22,593 bases of DNA. It comes from a virus. A program made the position numbers and the translations under genes. Position 1 is the stretch's first letter, and every line of letters begins with the position of its first letter. The notes beneath the pieces were generated by a model, which searched no databases, was not told the origin of the DNA, and saw only the letters and a list, made by a program, of their open reading frames with translations. The stretch spans positions 1-22,593 of IMG/VR virus record IMGVR_UViG_3300025079_000031. One strand, 5' to 3'. Below are positions 1 through 6,628 of this stretch, piece after piece.

Positions 1-121
1 TAGAAAAAGAAAAGAAACCAATTCTTTCCCAAGGAACACCCTGTTCTTTTTTTTGCTGACATATATTTAACAGCTCTGTTGTTTTGCCTGTACCAGGAGG
101 TCCTACAATTATATTAATCAT
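1..121 (-). CDS. P-loop helicase, N-terminal fragment (Dda/UvrD-like, partial)
   Basis: Only the first 40 codons are inside the window; the gene runs off the left edge. The translation begins MINIIVGPPGTGKTTELL, with a textbook Walker A motif (GPPGTGKT, residues 7-14), and continues to WERIGFFSFS. A P-loop at the extreme N terminus followed by a 'GFFSF' strand is how phage superfamily 1 helicases of the Dda/UvrD type start, where the Phe-Ser/Thr segment leads into motif Ia. That identification is inference from a fragment; another AAA or P-loop ATPase is possible. The ATG overlaps the stop of the preceding gene (TAATG), so translation is probably coupled. It is the last visible member of the leftward replication block. 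Confidence 0.7.
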   Translation of the reverse strand, partial: MINIIVGPPGTGKTTELLNICQQKKEQGVPWERIGFFSFS

Positions 122-777
122 TAAAACAATATTCCTTGTGTTTCTATATTTGTATTTGTTTTGTAATTTTTATTTTCAAACTTAGGGTAATTTAAAATTG
201 GATACTTAAAATTTTTTAAGATTTGCTTTTTATCTTTTTTATTTGCTATAACATAAAGATAACGATGTTTTCGAGGTCGTTGTACAACATGAAATTTATC
301 TGGATTATTTTTTCTTTCTTCTAATGTATATTGCTCACATATTGTTTTACTATGTTTATTTGTTCCTTTCATTCTCCATTCAGTTCTTTTATCAGACAAA
401 CCAGTATATAAAAAATTTGTAGCTTGATAAATATATCCTGTGTGATGTTGACTCGTATCTGCGTAAGAAACAATTATAACTGGTCTGTGTAAAAGCTTAA
501 AAGAATTACTTACTAAAAAAGAAGCCTCATTTTTAATATTGTTTTTTAAAACAAGCCTATTTAATTCTAATACTTTTTTCCTGTACTCATCTCCTGCAAT
601 ACCTCTACATAAAGATTGAGAAGCTGGAGATCCATAACAAACAACACCAACTAATTCATCATTAAAAAATAAACCAAAAGAAAACTGTATCATTGGCATT
701 CTTTTTGCATAATGAATTCCTAATATAAAAGGTTTTGTTTCTTCATATTTTATTGGCATTACTTTATAGTTCTCCAT
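121..777 (-). CDS. Mom-like DNA modification protein (GNAT-fold acyltransferase)
   Basis: The 218-aa protein resembles the phage Mu Mom family, which uses a GNAT fold to convert adenine in phage DNA to an N6-carbamoylmethyl form and so blocks restriction enzymes. Visible support: a VGVVCYG strand and a YGSPAS turn (about residues 43-53), an 'ELNRLVL' segment (about 71-77) matching the ELxRL signature of these proteins, and a block with IIVSYADTSQ followed by GYIYQATNFLYTGLS (about 101-128). The C-terminal third is basic and lysine-rich, as expected for DNA contact. It sits between primase and helicase genes, 2 nt after the primase stop, consistent with action on replicating DNA. The assignment rests on motif memory, not alignment; another GNAT enzyme is possible. 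Confidence 0.62.
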   Translation of the reverse strand: MENYKVMPIKYEETKPFILGIHYAKRMPMIQFSFGLFFNDELVGVVCYGSPASQSLCRGIAGDEYRKKVLELNRLVLKNNIKNEASFLVSNSFKLLHRPVIIVSYADTSQHHTGYIYQATNFLYTGLSDKRTEWRMKGTNKHSKTICEQYTLEERKNNPDKFHVVQRPRKHRYLYVIANKKDKKQILKNFKYPILNYPKFENKNYKTNTNIETQGILF

Positions 778-779
778 AA

Positions 780-2342
780 TTAAAATGGTATAACCTCATC
801 TTCAGTTCCTCCTAAAATATCTTTATCAGTTTTTTCTTCTGTTTTTAAATCAGGCATCTTTTGCATATTTTTAGGCTGTGTATATGCAGGTATTTTCCAC
901 GCACGTGTTTGTATTCCTTTTGGATATACCATCACATCTATACCCTCTAAATCTTTTATTCGTTGAACTAACCAAGATCTATTCTCTTTAAAATTTTTGG
1001 TATTCTCTAACCATTTTGATAAGTCACGTAAACGAAAGTATGTCGAATTCTCTTCCGCATTAGTATAGGGTTTTTCCATATCTAATTCATCAATATCAAA
1101 TGACTCACCTCTTGCGGTACAAAACTCAAATAAATAATCTTTAAACTCACCCACCTTCGATACATCTTCAGGCATATTAATTGTAGTAATTGTTTCAAAT
1201 AATCCTGACTGTATTTCTTCCCAGTCAGCTTGTTTCATCATAGGTATGTAACGTAATAATTTTCTTTTAACTAATTTACGTAAACGATGATGATATTCTA
1301 TTTCATCTTGTACTTGTGTCTCTACTGGATGAGAGTCTATATCAAGATACCAAATACGTGGTTCGCGATCCGTGACACGTAAGTTCGCATATACAGGATG
1401 ATCTTGACCTGATGTACCCACACCAAACTTTCTTAATTTACATTTAGCTTTTTGACAAACACTAGCGATAGGTTGATCATTACATTTATACATATATTTC
1501 ATGGTACCATCAGCTTTATCAGCACCAACTTGTTTCATAATAATACCTACCTCATTAGTATTTAAAGGTGGGTCCATGTATTCGCGGTTATATGTTTCTA
1601 ATAAATTCTTCCAGTCATCAGGATTAGACTTACGATAAAAAATTCCCACACTAAATAATCCATTATTTCTTGTCCCTTCTGGATAGCCTTGATCCGTTAA
1701 AATTTCTAAACATGGAGGGCCATCAGCCATGTTATTATCTTCTACCTGTATTAATATTTTACCAATATCATCACAGACATATTTGTCATATAACTCAAAG
1801 AATTCTTCTAGTGTAGCACCTTCACCATTATCAAGAAACGCGTACCGTGTTTCGCCGTGATAAGGTAAGTTTAGCCACGATCCAGTGTCTTGTTCATCAG
1901 AGAGTTTAATTTGTTTAGGAAATACCTCCGCTTTTGCATAGCCAAGATGAGCGCGTATTTCTTTTAACTTTTCATCAAACAGAAAAGCAGGTTGTGGATT
2001 TTTGGAAAATAAAAAAAGATGAGCGCCAAAAGATTTGGAGGCACACATCACTAATGGTAGTTTGTATTTTCGTATTTGTGATAATATTTTTTTATGATCC
2101 AAAGGGTACTCGTCAATATCAATACAGCCCCACGTACAAGTTGCATCGTCTCGAATGGGAACAATACCTAAAGCACGATCTTTTCCTTCAAGATGATCTT
2201 GAAACATTTGTAAAGTAGGTTCTTCATGCACTGTACGCATGCGTCCATCACGCTTACCATTTTGTTTTGTTTGGGTGTACTCATAAAAACCGTGAGCTCT
2301 ATCTAACCCATCAAATATATTTTTAAATTTTTCTACTTTCAT
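780..2342 (-). CDS. AEP-family DNA primase (TOTE/PriCT-like)
   Basis: The 520-aa protein looks like a phage archaeo-eukaryotic-type primase that makes primers for replication. The AEP catalytic signature is visible: CIDIDEYP (D75, D77) for metal binding, SKSFGAHLF (102-110) giving the S-x-G-x-H motif with H108, then EVFPKQ (139-144) and GSWLNLPYHG. Residues 205-275 resemble a PriCT helical region (PEGTRNNGLFSVGIFYRK, then NEVGIIMKQV). C211, C287, C296 and C301 form a possible Zn or Fe-S ligand set, as in PriL-type C-terminal domains. Residues 315-520 are not recognised; no helicase motif is seen there. A separate SNF2 helicase lies at 4209. The start has no clear Shine-Dalgarno and follows a hairpin at 2362-2380. 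The start of the ORF agrees with the N-terminal fold, so I keep it. Confidence 0.78.
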   Translation of the reverse strand: MKVEKFKNIFDGLDRAHGFYEYTQTKQNGKRDGRMRTVHEEPTLQMFQDHLEGKDRALGIVPIRDDATCTWGCIDIDEYPLDHKKILSQIRKYKLPLVMCASKSFGAHLFLFSKNPQPAFLFDEKLKEIRAHLGYAKAEVFPKQIKLSDEQDTGSWLNLPYHGETRYAFLDNGEGATLEEFFELYDKYVCDDIGKILIQVEDNNMADGPPCLEILTDQGYPEGTRNNGLFSVGIFYRKSNPDDWKNLLETYNREYMDPPLNTNEVGIIMKQVGADKADGTMKYMYKCNDQPIASVCQKAKCKLRKFGVGTSGQDHPVYANLRVTDREPRIWYLDIDSHPVETQVQDEIEYHHRLRKLVKRKLLRYIPMMKQADWEEIQSGLFETITTINMPEDVSKVGEFKDYLFEFCTARGESFDIDELDMEKPYTNAEENSTYFRLRDLSKWLENTKNFKENRSWLVQRIKDLEGIDVMVYPKGIQTRAWKIPAYTQPKNMQKMPDLKTEEKTDKDILGGTEDEVIPF

Positions 2343-2361
2343 AAATAATAATAAAATAACT

Positions 2362-2380
2362 AGGGGCCTTGAAGGCCCCT
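2362..2380 (-). terminator. GC-rich hairpin between SSB-like and primase genes
   Basis: AGGGGCCTT-g-AAGGCCCCT is a perfect inverted repeat, best drawn as a 7-bp stem AGGGGCC/GGCCCCT with a 5-nt loop. Read leftward it is followed by AGTTATTTTATTATTATTT, which is U-rich but interrupted, and then directly by the primase ATG. It fits a leaky terminator or attenuator lowering primase expression relative to the SSB-like gene. The lack of an uninterrupted U run makes full termination uncertain. Confidence 0.6.
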
Positions 2381-2400
2381 AACCTAGATAATTAAGGTGA

Positions 2401-3228
2401 TTACGAACCTAAAACGCCACTATCCATATTAGGTGTTACGTTTTTCATTTCGTTATCGTCATTATCACTATTTGCTTCTGGAGCAGGATCGATAGATCCT
2501 GATGTCACAAGCTCATGAAAATGTTTAGCTTCCTCCACAATATAAGATGGATTAGGAATATCATTGACTGATTTATCCAAGGTGATTTTCCATCCCCACC
2601 AATCATTCTTTTTATTTGCTTCTTGTACACCTTCCATTTTGTATACATTTGCAAACATAGGTAATGTTCTTAGTGACCCATCGTTGGCTTTAATTTTCTG
2701 ATTCATCATCATTGTATTCCAATAACGGGATTTTTTATATTGTGTCTTCTGCATAATAATTTGGCATCGCTCAAACGATCCATCATCATTAATTCGTAAA
2801 ACAAAATATTCAGCCGTCGTAACAATGTAGGTAGGAGAGATCGCTCCATTAATCATGTAATGATCTTCCCCATCCGCGCCACGCGTTAAAGCTGGCATGT
2901 CTTCAGGCTTATAAATTTTTACAGGTGCACCAGTCCCTTCACCTAAAGGTGACCACTCTACCCCACGTACTCTAAAGGCACATGGAACTACAGTTATGCT
3001 TTTGTAAAAGTCTTTTGTAACAGAATTAAAAATATCACCTTGCTCAAGTCCTTCTACAAACTTAGCATTTGATTTTTTAATCTCTGGTGTTTGAGAGCTA
3101 GCAATTTTTAAAAATGGTATTGCCATTTCTTGCGCACCAACATTTTCAAAGCCAACACCAATGTGGCTTGAAAAGTCTACAACATTAGTCGATATTTCAC
3201 TTTTCTTTTTTTTCGTTACATCGTTCAT
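2401..3228 (-). CDS. probable phage ssDNA-binding protein
   Basis: A 275-aa protein without a catalytic motif. The first half starts with a basic stretch (KKKKSE, residues 6-11) and the segment MAIPFLKIASSQTPEI (about 35-50), which I associate with a conserved phage replication-block family often taken to be ssDNA-binding. The middle is rich in beta strands and aromatic residues (YIVTTAEYFVLRINDDG; RYWNTMMMNQK; NDWWGWKITL), as expected of an OB-like fold. The last 35 residues are acidic and low-complexity (NSDNDDNEM), like the acidic tails by which phage SSBs such as T7 gp2.5 recruit partners. It lies just upstream of primase in the same operon. The function is inferred from tail, composition and position; no OB signature is provable by eye. 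Confidence 0.5.
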   Translation of the reverse strand: MNDVTKKKKSEISTNVVDFSSHIGVGFENVGAQEMAIPFLKIASSQTPEIKKSNAKFVEGLEQGDIFNSVTKDFYKSITVVPCAFRVRGVEWSPLGEGTGAPVKIYKPEDMPALTRGADGEDHYMINGAISPTYIVTTAEYFVLRINDDGSFERCQIIMQKTQYKKSRYWNTMMMNQKIKANDGSLRTLPMFANVYKMEGVQEANKKNDWWGWKITLDKSVNDIPNPSYIVEEAKHFHELVTSGSIDPAPEANSDNDDNEMKNVTPNMDSGVLGS

Positions 3229-3230
3229 GG

Positions 3231-3788
3231 TTATTTCCCTTTTTTAATTTTCACTTTATTACCCATATACACATTAAATATATCTATAGGTAAATCGGTA
3301 CCTTTATTTATTTGTTCGCCAACAAAGGCGTTCAAGGTCATAGGTTCGACCTTGCGTTTTTGGTCTGGAGCTAAACCATTTTGCTCTAAGTCTTCTACCA
3401 ACTTAGATGCCTGATCATTATCTCCTTTACCAAACCTCACTGACACAATGTTTTTAATTAGTTCATCGTGGTTATTTTTTTCTAACCATCCAAAACATTC
3501 TGTTTCATTATCTTTAGTGATGCTCGCTTTATAAAAGGGTTTATAACTTATTGCTTCACCACTCGTCAGTTTAATCTCTTTAACTCCGCGTTGCTCCATC
3601 ATCTGAACAATTGAATCATTCATTTGTTGTAGCTCGGATTTTTTTCTTTTAACGTCGTTTTCTAATGAAAGTATTTCACTTTCAATTTGTAAATATCTAT
3701 TGGATGCTTCTGACACATCTTTAACCTCAGATATTTTTACTTTATTTTCTTCAGGTAAAAAATTTGTAAAATCAACTTTCTCTGTCAT
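3231..3788 (-). CDS. coiled-coil replication-block protein, unknown function
   Basis: A 185-aa protein. Residues about 25-75 form a long charged helix likely to be a coiled coil (heptad-like ESEILSLENDVKRKKSEL and following). A beta-hairpin segment follows (VKEIKLTSGEAISYKPFYKASITKD), then a globular part containing FGWLEKNNHDELIKNIVSVRFGKGD. The combination resembles a phage family found beside the SSB-like gene in marine and alphaproteobacterial phages, but I cannot name a function. The stop is 2 nt before the SSB-like gene, and the start overlaps the upstream gene by 17 nt, so the three genes are co-transcribed. A role assisting the SSB-like protein or recombination is possible only by neighbourhood. 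Confidence 0.6.
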   Translation of the reverse strand: MTEKVDFTNFLPEENKVKISEVKDVSEASNRYLQIESEILSLENDVKRKKSELQQMNDSIVQMMEQRGVKEIKLTSGEAISYKPFYKASITKDNETECFGWLEKNNHDELIKNIVSVRFGKGDNDQASKLVEDLEQNGLAPDQKRKVEPMTLNAFVGEQINKGTDLPIDIFNVYMGNKVKIKKGK

Positions 3789-4125
3789 AGTTATTCCTCT
3801 CGTGTAAGTCTATCTGTATGGGGAGATATGTATGCGATTGGCGATCGTATTTTAAAAGATTATATCTGCCACGATTATTTTCTGCAGCAACTGAACAACA
3901 AAGACCAATCATTGATGGATCACCAATCAATAATAAATAATCTTTATCATTAAAATCTTTTAATATATTTTTAGCCTTACGTATCGCTGGTCCAGGTGAT
4001 AACATAATTTGTTTTCCCTCCTCAAATATAGGAATTAGTTTTCCATATTCCTGAGCAGTGATTACATTAAATCGAGATACCTCTTGGATAACGTACACAT
4101 TTCCTTTGTTTTCTAAGTCTTTCAT
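3772..4125 (-). CDS. conserved phage protein of unknown function, first gene of leftward replication block
   Basis: A 117-aa soluble protein. It begins MKDLENKGNVYVIQEVSRFN, then shows ITAQEYGKLIPIFEEGKQIMLSPGPAIRKAK, a loop NDKDYLLLIGDPSMIGLC (about residues 78-95) and YNLLKYDRQSHTYLPIQIDL. This alternation suggests a small alpha/beta fold; the LLLIGDPSMIG stretch looks like a buried strand and turn. I recall similar proteins upstream of SSB-like genes in other marine phages, but no function. It overlaps the following gene by 17 nt and is the first gene of this leftward transcript, next to the divergent SNF2 helicase gene. Confidence 0.62.
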   Translation of the reverse strand: MKDLENKGNVYVIQEVSRFNVITAQEYGKLIPIFEEGKQIMLSPGPAIRKAKNILKDFNDKDYLLLIGDPSMIGLCCSVAAENNRGRYNLLKYDRQSHTYLPIQIDLHERNNYDRES

Positions 4126-4208
4126 CTTTCTAGGGCAGTCTATATTATTTTTATTTTAATTATACAAGAAAAATGTTACTGTTTTTTAATTTTATAATTT
4201 AGAAAGTT
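4126..4208. promoter_or_regulatory. divergent intergenic region with -10 boxes on both strands
   Basis: This 83-nt AT-rich gap separates the leftward replication block from the rightward SNF2 gene. A perfect TATAAT lies on the plus strand at 4193-4198, 10 nt before the SNF2 ATG, and a second perfect TATAAT lies on the minus strand at 4164-4159, 33 nt before the leftward ATG. Neither has a convincing -35 box at 16-18 nt. In DNA this AT-rich a TATAAT can occur by chance, so the calls rest mainly on position. If the plus box is used, the SNF2 mRNA would have a leader of only a few nucleotides. Confidence 0.45.
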
Positions 4209-5672
4209 ATGCCGAAATATAAATATAGTTTTAAAACAACGCCTTACGAGCATCAATTAGCTGCTATGGGAGCTATGTTAAATCATTTTTCTAAGCAAAA
4301 TAAAGAGTTTGCGTTGCTTATGGAAATGGGTTGTGGAAAAACAAAAGTATTAATTGATGCGTCTTCGTTTCTTTATGACAATGGATATATTTTTGGTTTA
4401 CTTGTTATCTGTCCTAACGGTGTCAAAGGAACGTGGGTCAAAGAAATTGAAACACATATGCCAACACACGTGGATCATAACGTAGTCGTATGGACAGGAC
4501 AAAAAACAAAAAAGCATGAAGAAGAATTACAAACATTATTTATTACGGAACCTGCGAAAGTACATTTAAATATTTTAATTATGAACGTTGATGCGTTTAC
4601 CACGGACCGTGGACGCAAGTTTGCTGATAGATTTCTCATGACCCGTCAAGCATTGATGGCTGTTGATGAAAGCACGATCATTAAAAACTCAAGCGCGTTA
4701 CGTACCAAAGCGATTACTAAACTTGGTAACTTAGCGCGTTACCGTGTTATCATGACAGGTTCCCCTATTACTAAATCTCCTGAAGATCTGTATGCGCAAT
4801 GTAATTTTTTAAATCATGATCTATTAGGGTTTAGTTCTATTTATACATTTAGAGCGCGTTACTGTCAGATGCAGCGATTATCTTTTGGTGGTCGTTCGTT
4901 TAATAAAGTAACAGGATATAAAAACTTAGAAGAATTAAATTATAAGTTACGACAATTTTCTTATCGTGTTTTAAAAAAAGACGCGCTTGATCTTCCTGAT
5001 CAAGTATGGATGAAAAGAATTGTTCCAATGACAACGGAACAGCTTGATGCGTACATGCAAATGAAACGCACTGCTTTAGTGCAACTCAAGCAAGAAACAT
5101 TGACGACTACGTCAGTGCTCGCTCAAATGATAAGGCTTCATCAAATAGTGTGTGGTCATATGGCAACCGATGATGGTAAAGTATTATCGTTACCAAATAA
5201 CCGCGTTAAAGAACTATGTGCTATTCTAGAAGAGCACGGTGATAAAGCAATCATTTGGGCGAATTATCGTCATGACATTCAAGAGATTGAAAAAACATTA
5301 TTAAAAAAATACGGTCCGCGCTCCGTGGTCACGTATTATGGAGACACACCACAAAATATTAGACAAGAAAATATTAGACGATTTCAGGAGGATCAGGAGA
5401 CACAATTCTTTATTGGTCAACCTATGACAGGTGGTAGAGGTATTACATTAACTGCAGCTAGTCTTGCTGTCTTTTATTCAAACAATTATGATTTAGAGAT
5501 CCGTGAGCAGGCAGAGGCACGTAACCATCGTATTGGTACAGAAGATAAAGTCACTTACATTGATCTTGTTTCAACAGGAACAGTTGATGAAAAAATTATT
5601 TATTCACTACGAAATAAAATAAACTTAGCTACATCGGTGTTAGCTGAGGACATAAGGAAATGGTTAATATGA
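4209..5672 (+). CDS. SNF2-family DEAD/DEAH-box helicase
   Basis: A 487-aa superfamily 2 ATPase with both RecA-like lobes. Residues 11-16 (TPYEHQ) form the Q-motif region; Walker A is MGCGKTK at 40-46; motif II is DEST at 153-156 in place of DEAH, common in phage SNF2 proteins; MTGSP (about 184-188) is motif III. Lobe 2 shows a 'IIWANYRHDI' strand, PMTGGRGITLTAA (motif V region) and QAEARNHRIG at 434-443 as motif VI. Such proteins translocate on dsDNA and may remodel replication or recombination intermediates, or displace host proteins; the exact role here is unknown. Its last codons overlap the next gene (ATGA), showing coupled translation. The length is typical of minimal viral members, with no extra domain. 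Confidence 0.9.
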   Translation: MPKYKYSFKTTPYEHQLAAMGAMLNHFSKQNKEFALLMEMGCGKTKVLIDASSFLYDNGYIFGLLVICPNGVKGTWVKEIETHMPTHVDHNVVVWTGQKTKKHEEELQTLFITEPAKVHLNILIMNVDAFTTDRGRKFADRFLMTRQALMAVDESTIIKNSSALRTKAITKLGNLARYRVIMTGSPITKSPEDLYAQCNFLNHDLLGFSSIYTFRARYCQMQRLSFGGRSFNKVTGYKNLEELNYKLRQFSYRVLKKDALDLPDQVWMKRIVPMTTEQLDAYMQMKRTALVQLKQETLTTTSVLAQMIRLHQIVCGHMATDDGKVLSLPNNRVKELCAILEEHGDKAIIWANYRHDIQEIEKTLLKKYGPRSVVTYYGDTPQNIRQENIRRFQEDQETQFFIGQPMTGGRGITLTAASLAVFYSNNYDLEIREQAEARNHRIGTEDKVTYIDLVSTGTVDEKIIYSLRNKINLATSVLAEDIRKWLI

Positions 5673-5893
5673 TTCCATGTCCCAATTGTAAAGGAAACGG
5701 ATATGTCAAACTATCGTTTGAAGCAGAGACCAACATTGAACAGTGTAAGGTTTGTCACTCACAAGGGGAAATCGATGAAAATAAATACTACCACCAATCG
5801 TGGACCGAGGGTACGAACGACAGTATTAGCATCTACTACGGACCACCACTTGATCCAGAATGCTTTAAAAACTACAAAATTTCGGGAGGGTAA
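5669..5893 (+). CDS. DnaJ-like zinc-finger microprotein
   Basis: A 74-aa protein starting MIPCPNCKGNGYV, with a second CKVCHSQGEI motif about 25 residues later. The two CxxCxGxG-type motifs are those of DnaJ central-domain zinc fingers, predicting one zinc-bound hairpin. The rest is polar and aromatic (YYHQSWTEG, YYGPPLDPECF) and unrecognised. I prefer the ATG at 5669, which overlaps the SNF2 stop (ATGA) and has AAGGA 10 nt upstream, over the ATG at 5660, which has no spacing for a ribosome site. Phages often carry such free DnaJ-type fingers; their partners are unknown. A second open frame overlaps its 3' two-thirds. Confidence 0.72.
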   Translation: MIPCPNCKGNGYVKLSFEAETNIEQCKVCHSQGEIDENKYYHQSWTEGTNDSISIYYGPPLDPECFKNYKISGG

Positions 5894-6032: not shown

Positions 6033-6230
6033 ATGTTGTTACCTAATAGTCCTGTGAGAAAAATATCTCAATGTCCACAATGTGGCGAGGTATCTCTTAA
6101 ATTTTATAACCCTCAATATAATAAAGTTTTAAAAAAAGAAGAGTGGGAACAGGTATTATCGGATGGTCTACAGGCCCTGAGAAAAGTTCTCGGACCTGTA
6201 AAAGAAGACCCAAAGTTTTTTATGGATTAA
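6033..6230 (+). CDS. small CxxC protein, unknown function
   Basis: A 65-aa protein with one CPQCG zinc-knuckle pair near the N terminus (residues 14-18) followed by SLKFYNPQYNKVLKKEEWEQVL and an amphipathic helix (SDGLQALRKVLG). One CxxC pair alone cannot make a complete zinc site; it could pair in a dimer or bind through another ligand. The gene lies alone between the inverted repeat and the opposing operon, and its stop overlaps the stop of the minus-strand gene at 6227-6331, so the two transcripts run into each other. No function recognised. Confidence 0.55.
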   Translation: MLLPNSPVRKISQCPQCGEVSLKFYNPQYNKVLKKEEWEQVLSDGLQALRKVLGPVKEDPKFFMD

Positions 6231-6331: not shown

Positions 6332-6468
6332 AATGACTCTTCAACAATCTTTTCTAATTGCATAGGCCTTGATAGCTTTGTTTTCTTACACATCTGATCA
6401 AGCAACTTTCTTGTCTTCGCTGTAATCATTTGATTGTAATGTGTTAATTTTTTCTCTTTCTTTTTCAT
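6328..6468 (-). CDS. 46-aa basic protein resembling a ribbon-helix-helix regulator
   Basis: ATG at 6468 is preceded by AAGGA with a 5-nt gap, a strong ribosome site, although it lies inside the upstream zinc-finger gene (71-nt overlap in a different frame). The product is basic at the N terminus (MKKKEKKLTHYNQ). It then has a short strand-like ITAKT and two helices, TRKLLDQMCKKTKL and SRPMQLEKIVEESL. This order (strand, helix, turn with small/polar residues, helix) is the pattern of Arc/CopG-type DNA-binding proteins. It ends in an ATGA overlap with the membrane microgene. The fold is inferred from pattern only. A repressor acting on the nearby repeat-rich control region is an attractive but untested possibility. 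Confidence 0.52.
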   Translation of the reverse strand: MKKKEKKLTHYNQMITAKTRKLLDQMCKKTKLSRPMQLEKIVEESL

Positions 6469-6628
6469 GTTTATCCTTAAAATTGTAGCACCTGATACAT
6501 AAATGATCAGGATATTTATTCTTTATCGCTATCATCAACCATTGGTGATAACGTCTATTGCACGATTTACAATCGTGAAACTCATCAAACATTCCCATTA
6601 TTTTTTTAACTCCCCTTCTCTTTGCCAT
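6398..6628 (-). CDS. small zinc-finger protein (paired CxxC)
   Basis: A 76-aa protein with CKSCNRRYHQ (first pair) and CIRCYNFKDK (second pair, about 24 residues later), a four-cysteine zinc finger, followed by a charged helix (KHEKEREKINTLQ). AAAGGAG lies 7 nt before the ATG at 6628, which supports this start, giving a 31-nt overlap with the preceding gene. The ATG at 6598, overlapping that gene's stop as TAATG, is a plausible alternative that would remove ten basic residues. Its 3' end overlaps the 46-aa frame. It probably binds nucleic acid or a host protein; no family name is justified. Confidence 0.65.
   Translation of the reverse strand: MAKRRGVKKIMGMFDEFHDCKSCNRRYHQWLMIAIKNKYPDHLCIRCYNFKDKHEKEREKINTLQSNDYSEDKKVA

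Follow-up and report, generated by a model that had tools for sequence, protein, structure and literature searches.

The window analysed here, a 22,593-nt stretch of viral DNA (IMG/VR record IMGVR_UViG_3300025079_000031), carries an accessory gene of the Mom family in an apparently exchangeable modification slot between the primase and helicase genes of a replication operon. Its product most likely modifies adenine at the N6 position and shields the phage DNA from restriction, a reading to which a probability of roughly 0.7 is assigned. As far as its sequence tells, the protein is an ordinary Mom enzyme of a known kind. What is new is the place in which it is found, a seamless and polymorphic slot in which the window lineage is known to carry only DNA-modification genes, apart from a single 160-aa companion that matches no family. 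The slot is unusual in that a precise position of the replication operon is repeatedly reused, with unrelated DNA-modification enzymes replacing each other or missing, and searches of the open-licence literature brought up no account of such a slot between primase and helicase. The window phage is marine, and its lineage is related to the pelagiphages, a group of great abundance in the ocean.

Identity of the Mom-like protein

The mom-like gene (121..777, minus strand) starts with ATG and encodes a protein of 218 aa. An earlier note on this DNA had recognised in it a Mom-type GNAT protein from two sequence blocks, ELNRLVL and YADTSQHHTGYIYQATNFLYTGLS, both of which are present in the translation of the ORF, and this assignment is confirmed, because sequence, fold and key residue agree. 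The Pfam profile PF25680 (Mom) matches the ORF with an E-value of 5.4e-37 and 127.9 bits (cut-off 27.1), the match running from residue 4 to residue 199 of the protein and from position 2 to position 202 of a profile of 202, and PHROG 1384, annotated as 'Mom-like DNA modification protein', matches it at 2.9e-61. A phmmer comparison with the crystallised Mu Mom (PDB 8bv8) gives 2.1e-7. The AlphaFold2 model, built from 12 input sequences (pLDDT 82.8, pTM 0.76), has 8bv8 as its top Foldseek match (E-value 2.4e-12, TM 0.66–0.71) and thus shows the GNAT fold of the Mom type. Mom being the best hit for both profile and fold, the outcome foreseen as fatal to the assignment, a match to another GNAT family only, did not occur.

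Ser124 of Mu Mom (241-aa numbering) aligns with Ser86 of the window protein, in a column that is at least 90% conserved in alignment A1 and invariant in alignment A2; the importance of this serine is taken from the title of the 8bv8 entry alone, which describes an 'inactive mutant S124A'. An alignment of 22 members of the family, the window protein and Mu Mom included, contains 16 invariant columns (H22, Y23, G35, G44, E71, L72, R74, S104, D107, G114, Y117, A119, N121, G126, H142 and Y173). Karambelkar et al. in 2020 reportedly described residues of Mu Mom that coincide with several of these conserved positions. In the profile search Mom is the sole domain above cut-off in the 218 aa, with no endonuclease fusion, unlike the Mom–REase fusions of jumbo phages, which carry an endonuclease domain (PMC7824862).

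It could be argued that this GNAT protein has diverged from Mom in its chemistry and has as its acylation target a protein, a tRNA or a nucleotide used in replication, given that its identity to Mu Mom in the family alignment is only about 24% and that GNAT folds are versatile. This is improbable, since the whole Mom profile is covered, the key serine is retained along with other columns of the family, and Foldseek favours Mu Mom by seven orders of magnitude in E-value over the second-best GNAT (E-value 7e-5, TMq 0.47). Mom enzymes are described as attaching an acyl-type group to N6 of adenine in DNA (PMC7824862) and as shielding phage DNA from restriction (PMC6483171). The window Mom is accordingly expected, by family membership, to put such a group on adenine N6 of the phage's own DNA, which would shield it from host restriction.

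Position and expression of mom within the replication operon

The gene lies in a minus-strand run that opens with a Pam3 gp32-like gene (3772..4125), followed by a gp33-like gene (3231..3788), a gp34-like gene (2401..3228), an AEP-type (archaeo-eukaryotic) primase of 520 aa (780..2342), mom, a UvrD-type SF1 helicase, a small gene and PolA. Only the first helicase codons (1..121, minus strand) fall within the window, the gene running off its end; the remainder of the order was read from L003, a contig of 62,244 bp with a 99% identical mom, in which the complete helicase (506 aa) is followed by the small gene and then by PolA. The placement of mom between primase and helicase, as the earlier note had it, is correct: only 2 nt separate the end of the primase gene from the mom start codon, while the helicase ATG overlaps the mom stop codon (TAATG). 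The large terminase of the window is 61% identical to that of pelagiphage HTVC027P. The same primase–mom–helicase–PolA stretch is found in L236, a contig of a Candidatus Pelagibacter MAG (MED605), whose binning is a weak pointer to SAR11 hosts. GATC occurs 108 times in the window against 64 expected, a count reached by 0 of 100 shuffles; examined as a sign of restriction avoidance, the motif is over-represented and shows no depletion.

In phage Mu, mom is a late gene at the right end of the genome, beside the DNA invertase, and is overlapped by the upstream zinc-finger gene com, which regulates it. The window mom shares none of these features and lies inside the replication operon in stop–start overlap with the helicase. 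The absence of an adjacent Com-like regulator, also part of the earlier reading, holds, the gap between the primase stop and mom being 2 nt. The window has three zinc-ribbon-like ORFs in other places (5660–5893, 6033–6230 and 6398–6628), which were considered as Com candidates and rejected, as they give no Com profile match at an E-value of 0.5 and also occur in Mom-minus relatives: of 10 Mom-minus loci tested, all have those at 5660 and 6033, and nine have that at 6398. Nor was inhibitory RNA structure detected at the start of mom, where 110 nt fold no better than shuffled sequences (z −0.31), and the promoters found in positions 1–4400 (21) equal chance expectation (20.6). Expression of mom seems most simply explained by common transcription and stop–start coupling. 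A stem-loop with a T-rich tail (2358..2384, minus strand), resembling a terminator or attenuator, lies between the gp34-like gene and the primase. Relatives retain it, and where its stem differs among them the changes come in pairs; it may set the levels of primase, mom and helicase, possibly as an attenuator.

Presence and absence of mom among close relatives

Intact and nearly identical copies of mom are carried by the window and by six further contigs, one of them from a separate MAG; the six are five IMG/VR contigs (L001/L024, L002, L003/L038, L004/L025 and L005) and L236. A search of primase relatives combined with a synteny check found this type of mom only in the window clade, all the more distant relatives of the window type that were examined being without it. 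A segment of 659 nt (121..779, minus strand) is absent from near-identical relatives, as the result of either an insertion or a recent loss, and is bounded by two direct copies of the hexamer TTTTAA, one at the primase end (780..785) and one at the mom end (121..126). The comparison of L024, which carries mom, with L023, which does not, is the clearest: the helicases are identical over 1518 nt, the primases show 5 differences in 828 nt, and the difference in length is exactly 659 nt, with TTTTAA at both borders. Either gain of mom by L024 or its loss by L023 may account for the polymorphism. At 16 mom-less loci in which the junction was inspected, the primase stop leads directly into the helicase start. 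The statement that mom belongs to the replication operon is therefore only half right: the gene is linked to the operon by its stop and start codons, but it is outside the operon core, because close relatives, some of them near-identical phages, lack it at the same junction. Its GC content is 26.0%, against 34.4% for the primase and 32.1% for the helicase.

Such a polymorphism among near-identical contigs could also be taken as the sign of a recently dead gene or a passing assembly feature. This is extremely improbable, given that mom is intact in all seven carriers, including the separate MAG, and that allele differences are mainly synonymous, the two main alleles differing at 8 synonymous and 3 nonsynonymous codons. 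Comparison with the homologues in L006 and L009 gives a dN of about 0.14–0.16 and a dS of about 1.1–1.2, that is, a dN/dS of about 0.13 with dS near saturation, and this low dN relative to dS shows purifying selection on the window Mom. The natural pairs of Mom-plus and Mom-minus phages offer a way to probe the effect of Mom on phage DNA and host range without engineering.

The nearest mom genes beyond the clade are found at 14 loci (L006–L019) and are 45–80% identical to that of the window. Within the DNA available around each of them, no match to any gene of the window operon was found, and it follows that mom moves between phage types. In L006 (863–2126) and L009 (5711–6980), the marine-phage homologue has on one side a small HTH-like gene and on the other a gene of the RecA-dependent-nuclease/DUF968 type, with overlapping ends.

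Cargo of the primase–helicase junction

In the contigs related to the window, the primase–helicase junction is empty in 63 of 76 and filled in 13, by 541 to 2559 nt. The 76 come from 78 contigs picked, L037 and L039 being omitted because the primase is cut by the contig end; L074 and L086 give no primase match, and the window and L236 stand outside the set. The survey of helicase loci at this junction covered 70 of 80, nine 5'-truncated loci and L139 being omitted and L139 examined separately. All 13 filled junctions hold DNA-modification genes. The cargo is Mom in five contigs, an MT-A70 methyltransferase in L116 and L139, an N6/N4 methyltransferase in L087, and a C5-cytosine methyltransferase in L088, L089 and L235, that of L089 being assigned from the profile scan of the identical protein of L088. 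In L134 an N6/N4 methyltransferase is accompanied by the 160-aa protein without family match (3517–3999), which could be a partner nuclease. In L090 (616–3183) an N6/N4 methyltransferase is followed by two tandem, divergent Moms of 252 and 249 aa, which match PF25680 at 1.9e-23 and 1.1e-26 and form their own long branch in a Mom tree with many unresolved forks nearby. These contig counts overstate the number of independent events, because the contigs are related; the distinct cargo states are about eight.

A more ordinary account would see in the window Mom a moron, landed by chance at a permissive junction, with the slot methyltransferases reflecting no more than the general frequency of this kind of gene in phages. 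The occurrence of Mom genes in many contexts, the small number of distinct cargo states and the behaviour of the junction in two sister types, empty in one and with HTH genes in the other (see below), all speak for this account. It is nonetheless considered rather unlikely, owing to the other junctions of the operon and to the Moms of L090. At a threshold of at least 150 nt, the control junctions are never filled (gp32–gp33, 0 of 50; gp33–gp34, 0 of 59; gp34–primase, 0 of 64), and the interval between helicase and PolA, which often contains the small gene and is longer than 900 nt in 8 of 71 cases, is filled by a different class of genes. Those read there encode either ROS/MUCR-type zinc-finger proteins or proteins resembling PD-(D/E)XK nucleases, the latter on a match below cut-off, and no modification gene was found among the enlarged intervals that were read, in which two extra proteins were profile-scanned (this second variable site is seen in L033:9348–10001, L113:5845–7229, L117:5825–7307 and L123:5867–6727). 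Besides, two types of Mom occupy the same junction: the Moms of L090 are 28% identical to that of the window while the helicases are 76% identical, so that the two are unlikely to derive from one insertion.

The favoured reading, a Mom-family accessory gene in a modification slot, can be extended to a model in which the junction is a dedicated exchangeable slot, where Mom, adenine, cytosine and glycosyl-type cassettes are swapped precisely between overlapping stop and start codons, so that the enzyme on board is produced alongside the replication proteins and marks the DNA while it is copied. The chances of this wider model are put at about even. Mom would be made with the replication proteins, as the common mRNA and the overlapping stop and start codons suggest, and would act on newly made phage DNA. 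The different cargos may answer different host restriction systems, and their movement would rely on homologous recombination within the conserved genes on either side. If the model is true, the identity of the modification is a fast-switching trait in the arms race with host restriction.

The same junction in sister pelagiphage types

HTVC027P and HTVC023P share with the window the order primase, helicase, PolA. In the HTVC027P type, with the junction in view in 79 of 80 contigs, 53 of the 79 carry a GT-A-like gene in the slot that holds mom in the window, and the other 26 have an empty junction. In the cultured pelagiphage itself, for which infection RNA-seq is published (PMC12753301), this gene is gp05 (L145:3493–4200), whose glycosyltransferase match is weak (0.004, below cut-off) and whose action on DNA is putative. 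In the HTVC023P type the junction is empty in all 76 contigs with the primase in view (4 of 80 being without it), and it is empty in HTVC023P itself. According to the available part of PMC9599517, HTVC023P-type pelagiphages, a group that here includes HTVC027P, carry thymidine hypermodification genes near PolA; a Mom or methyltransferase slot is not described in that part. The 023Pt_psg01 type, again with 4 of 80 contigs lacking the primase in view, has gaps of at least 150 nt in 17 of 76 contigs: 10 of the 17 contain a LexA-HTH-like ORF of 72 to 82 aa (one of which was profile-scanned), five have no ORF of 70 aa, one has another ORF of 70 aa, and one encodes a 320-aa MUG113/GIY-YIG-like protein. 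Since the junction is empty in the HTVC023P type and holds HTH-like ORFs in the 023Pt_psg01 type, the modification slot is limited to part of the group: it is valid for the window lineage and perhaps for the HTVC027P type, and does not extend to the group as a whole.

Mom genes beside replication genes in other phages

The contrast with Mu drawn in the earlier note is true, but the position in the window is not special in this respect. Mom matches were found in 288 phage records, from which 15 were picked for diversity and their gene context read. In three of them (BarnCat, TwoStep and VSiP), mom directly adjoins the DNA polymerase gene, and in Alsa_2 and Appa a single gene stands between mom and, respectively, a DNA polymerase gene and SSB. 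The ten remaining phages have mom farther from such genes, elsewhere, or among unannotated neighbours. A mom gene beside replication genes is thus not rare. Mom-like genes of the same family as that of the window occur in Riggi, Listeria A511/LP-026, Proteus Inception, Staphylococcus Alsa_2, BarnCat, TwoStep and VSiP, which are different replicons from the window phage; the available part of PMC8670742 contains no passage on Mom. The window contains no tRNA, and a scan of 35 loci found a tRNA in 2, namely tRNA-Leu in BarnCat and tRNA-Gly in Appa. In the latter, a Microbacterium phage (L066:4001–4734), the tRNA-Gly adjoins the mom-like gene, which could be a clue to the donor of the Mom group or a product of chance.
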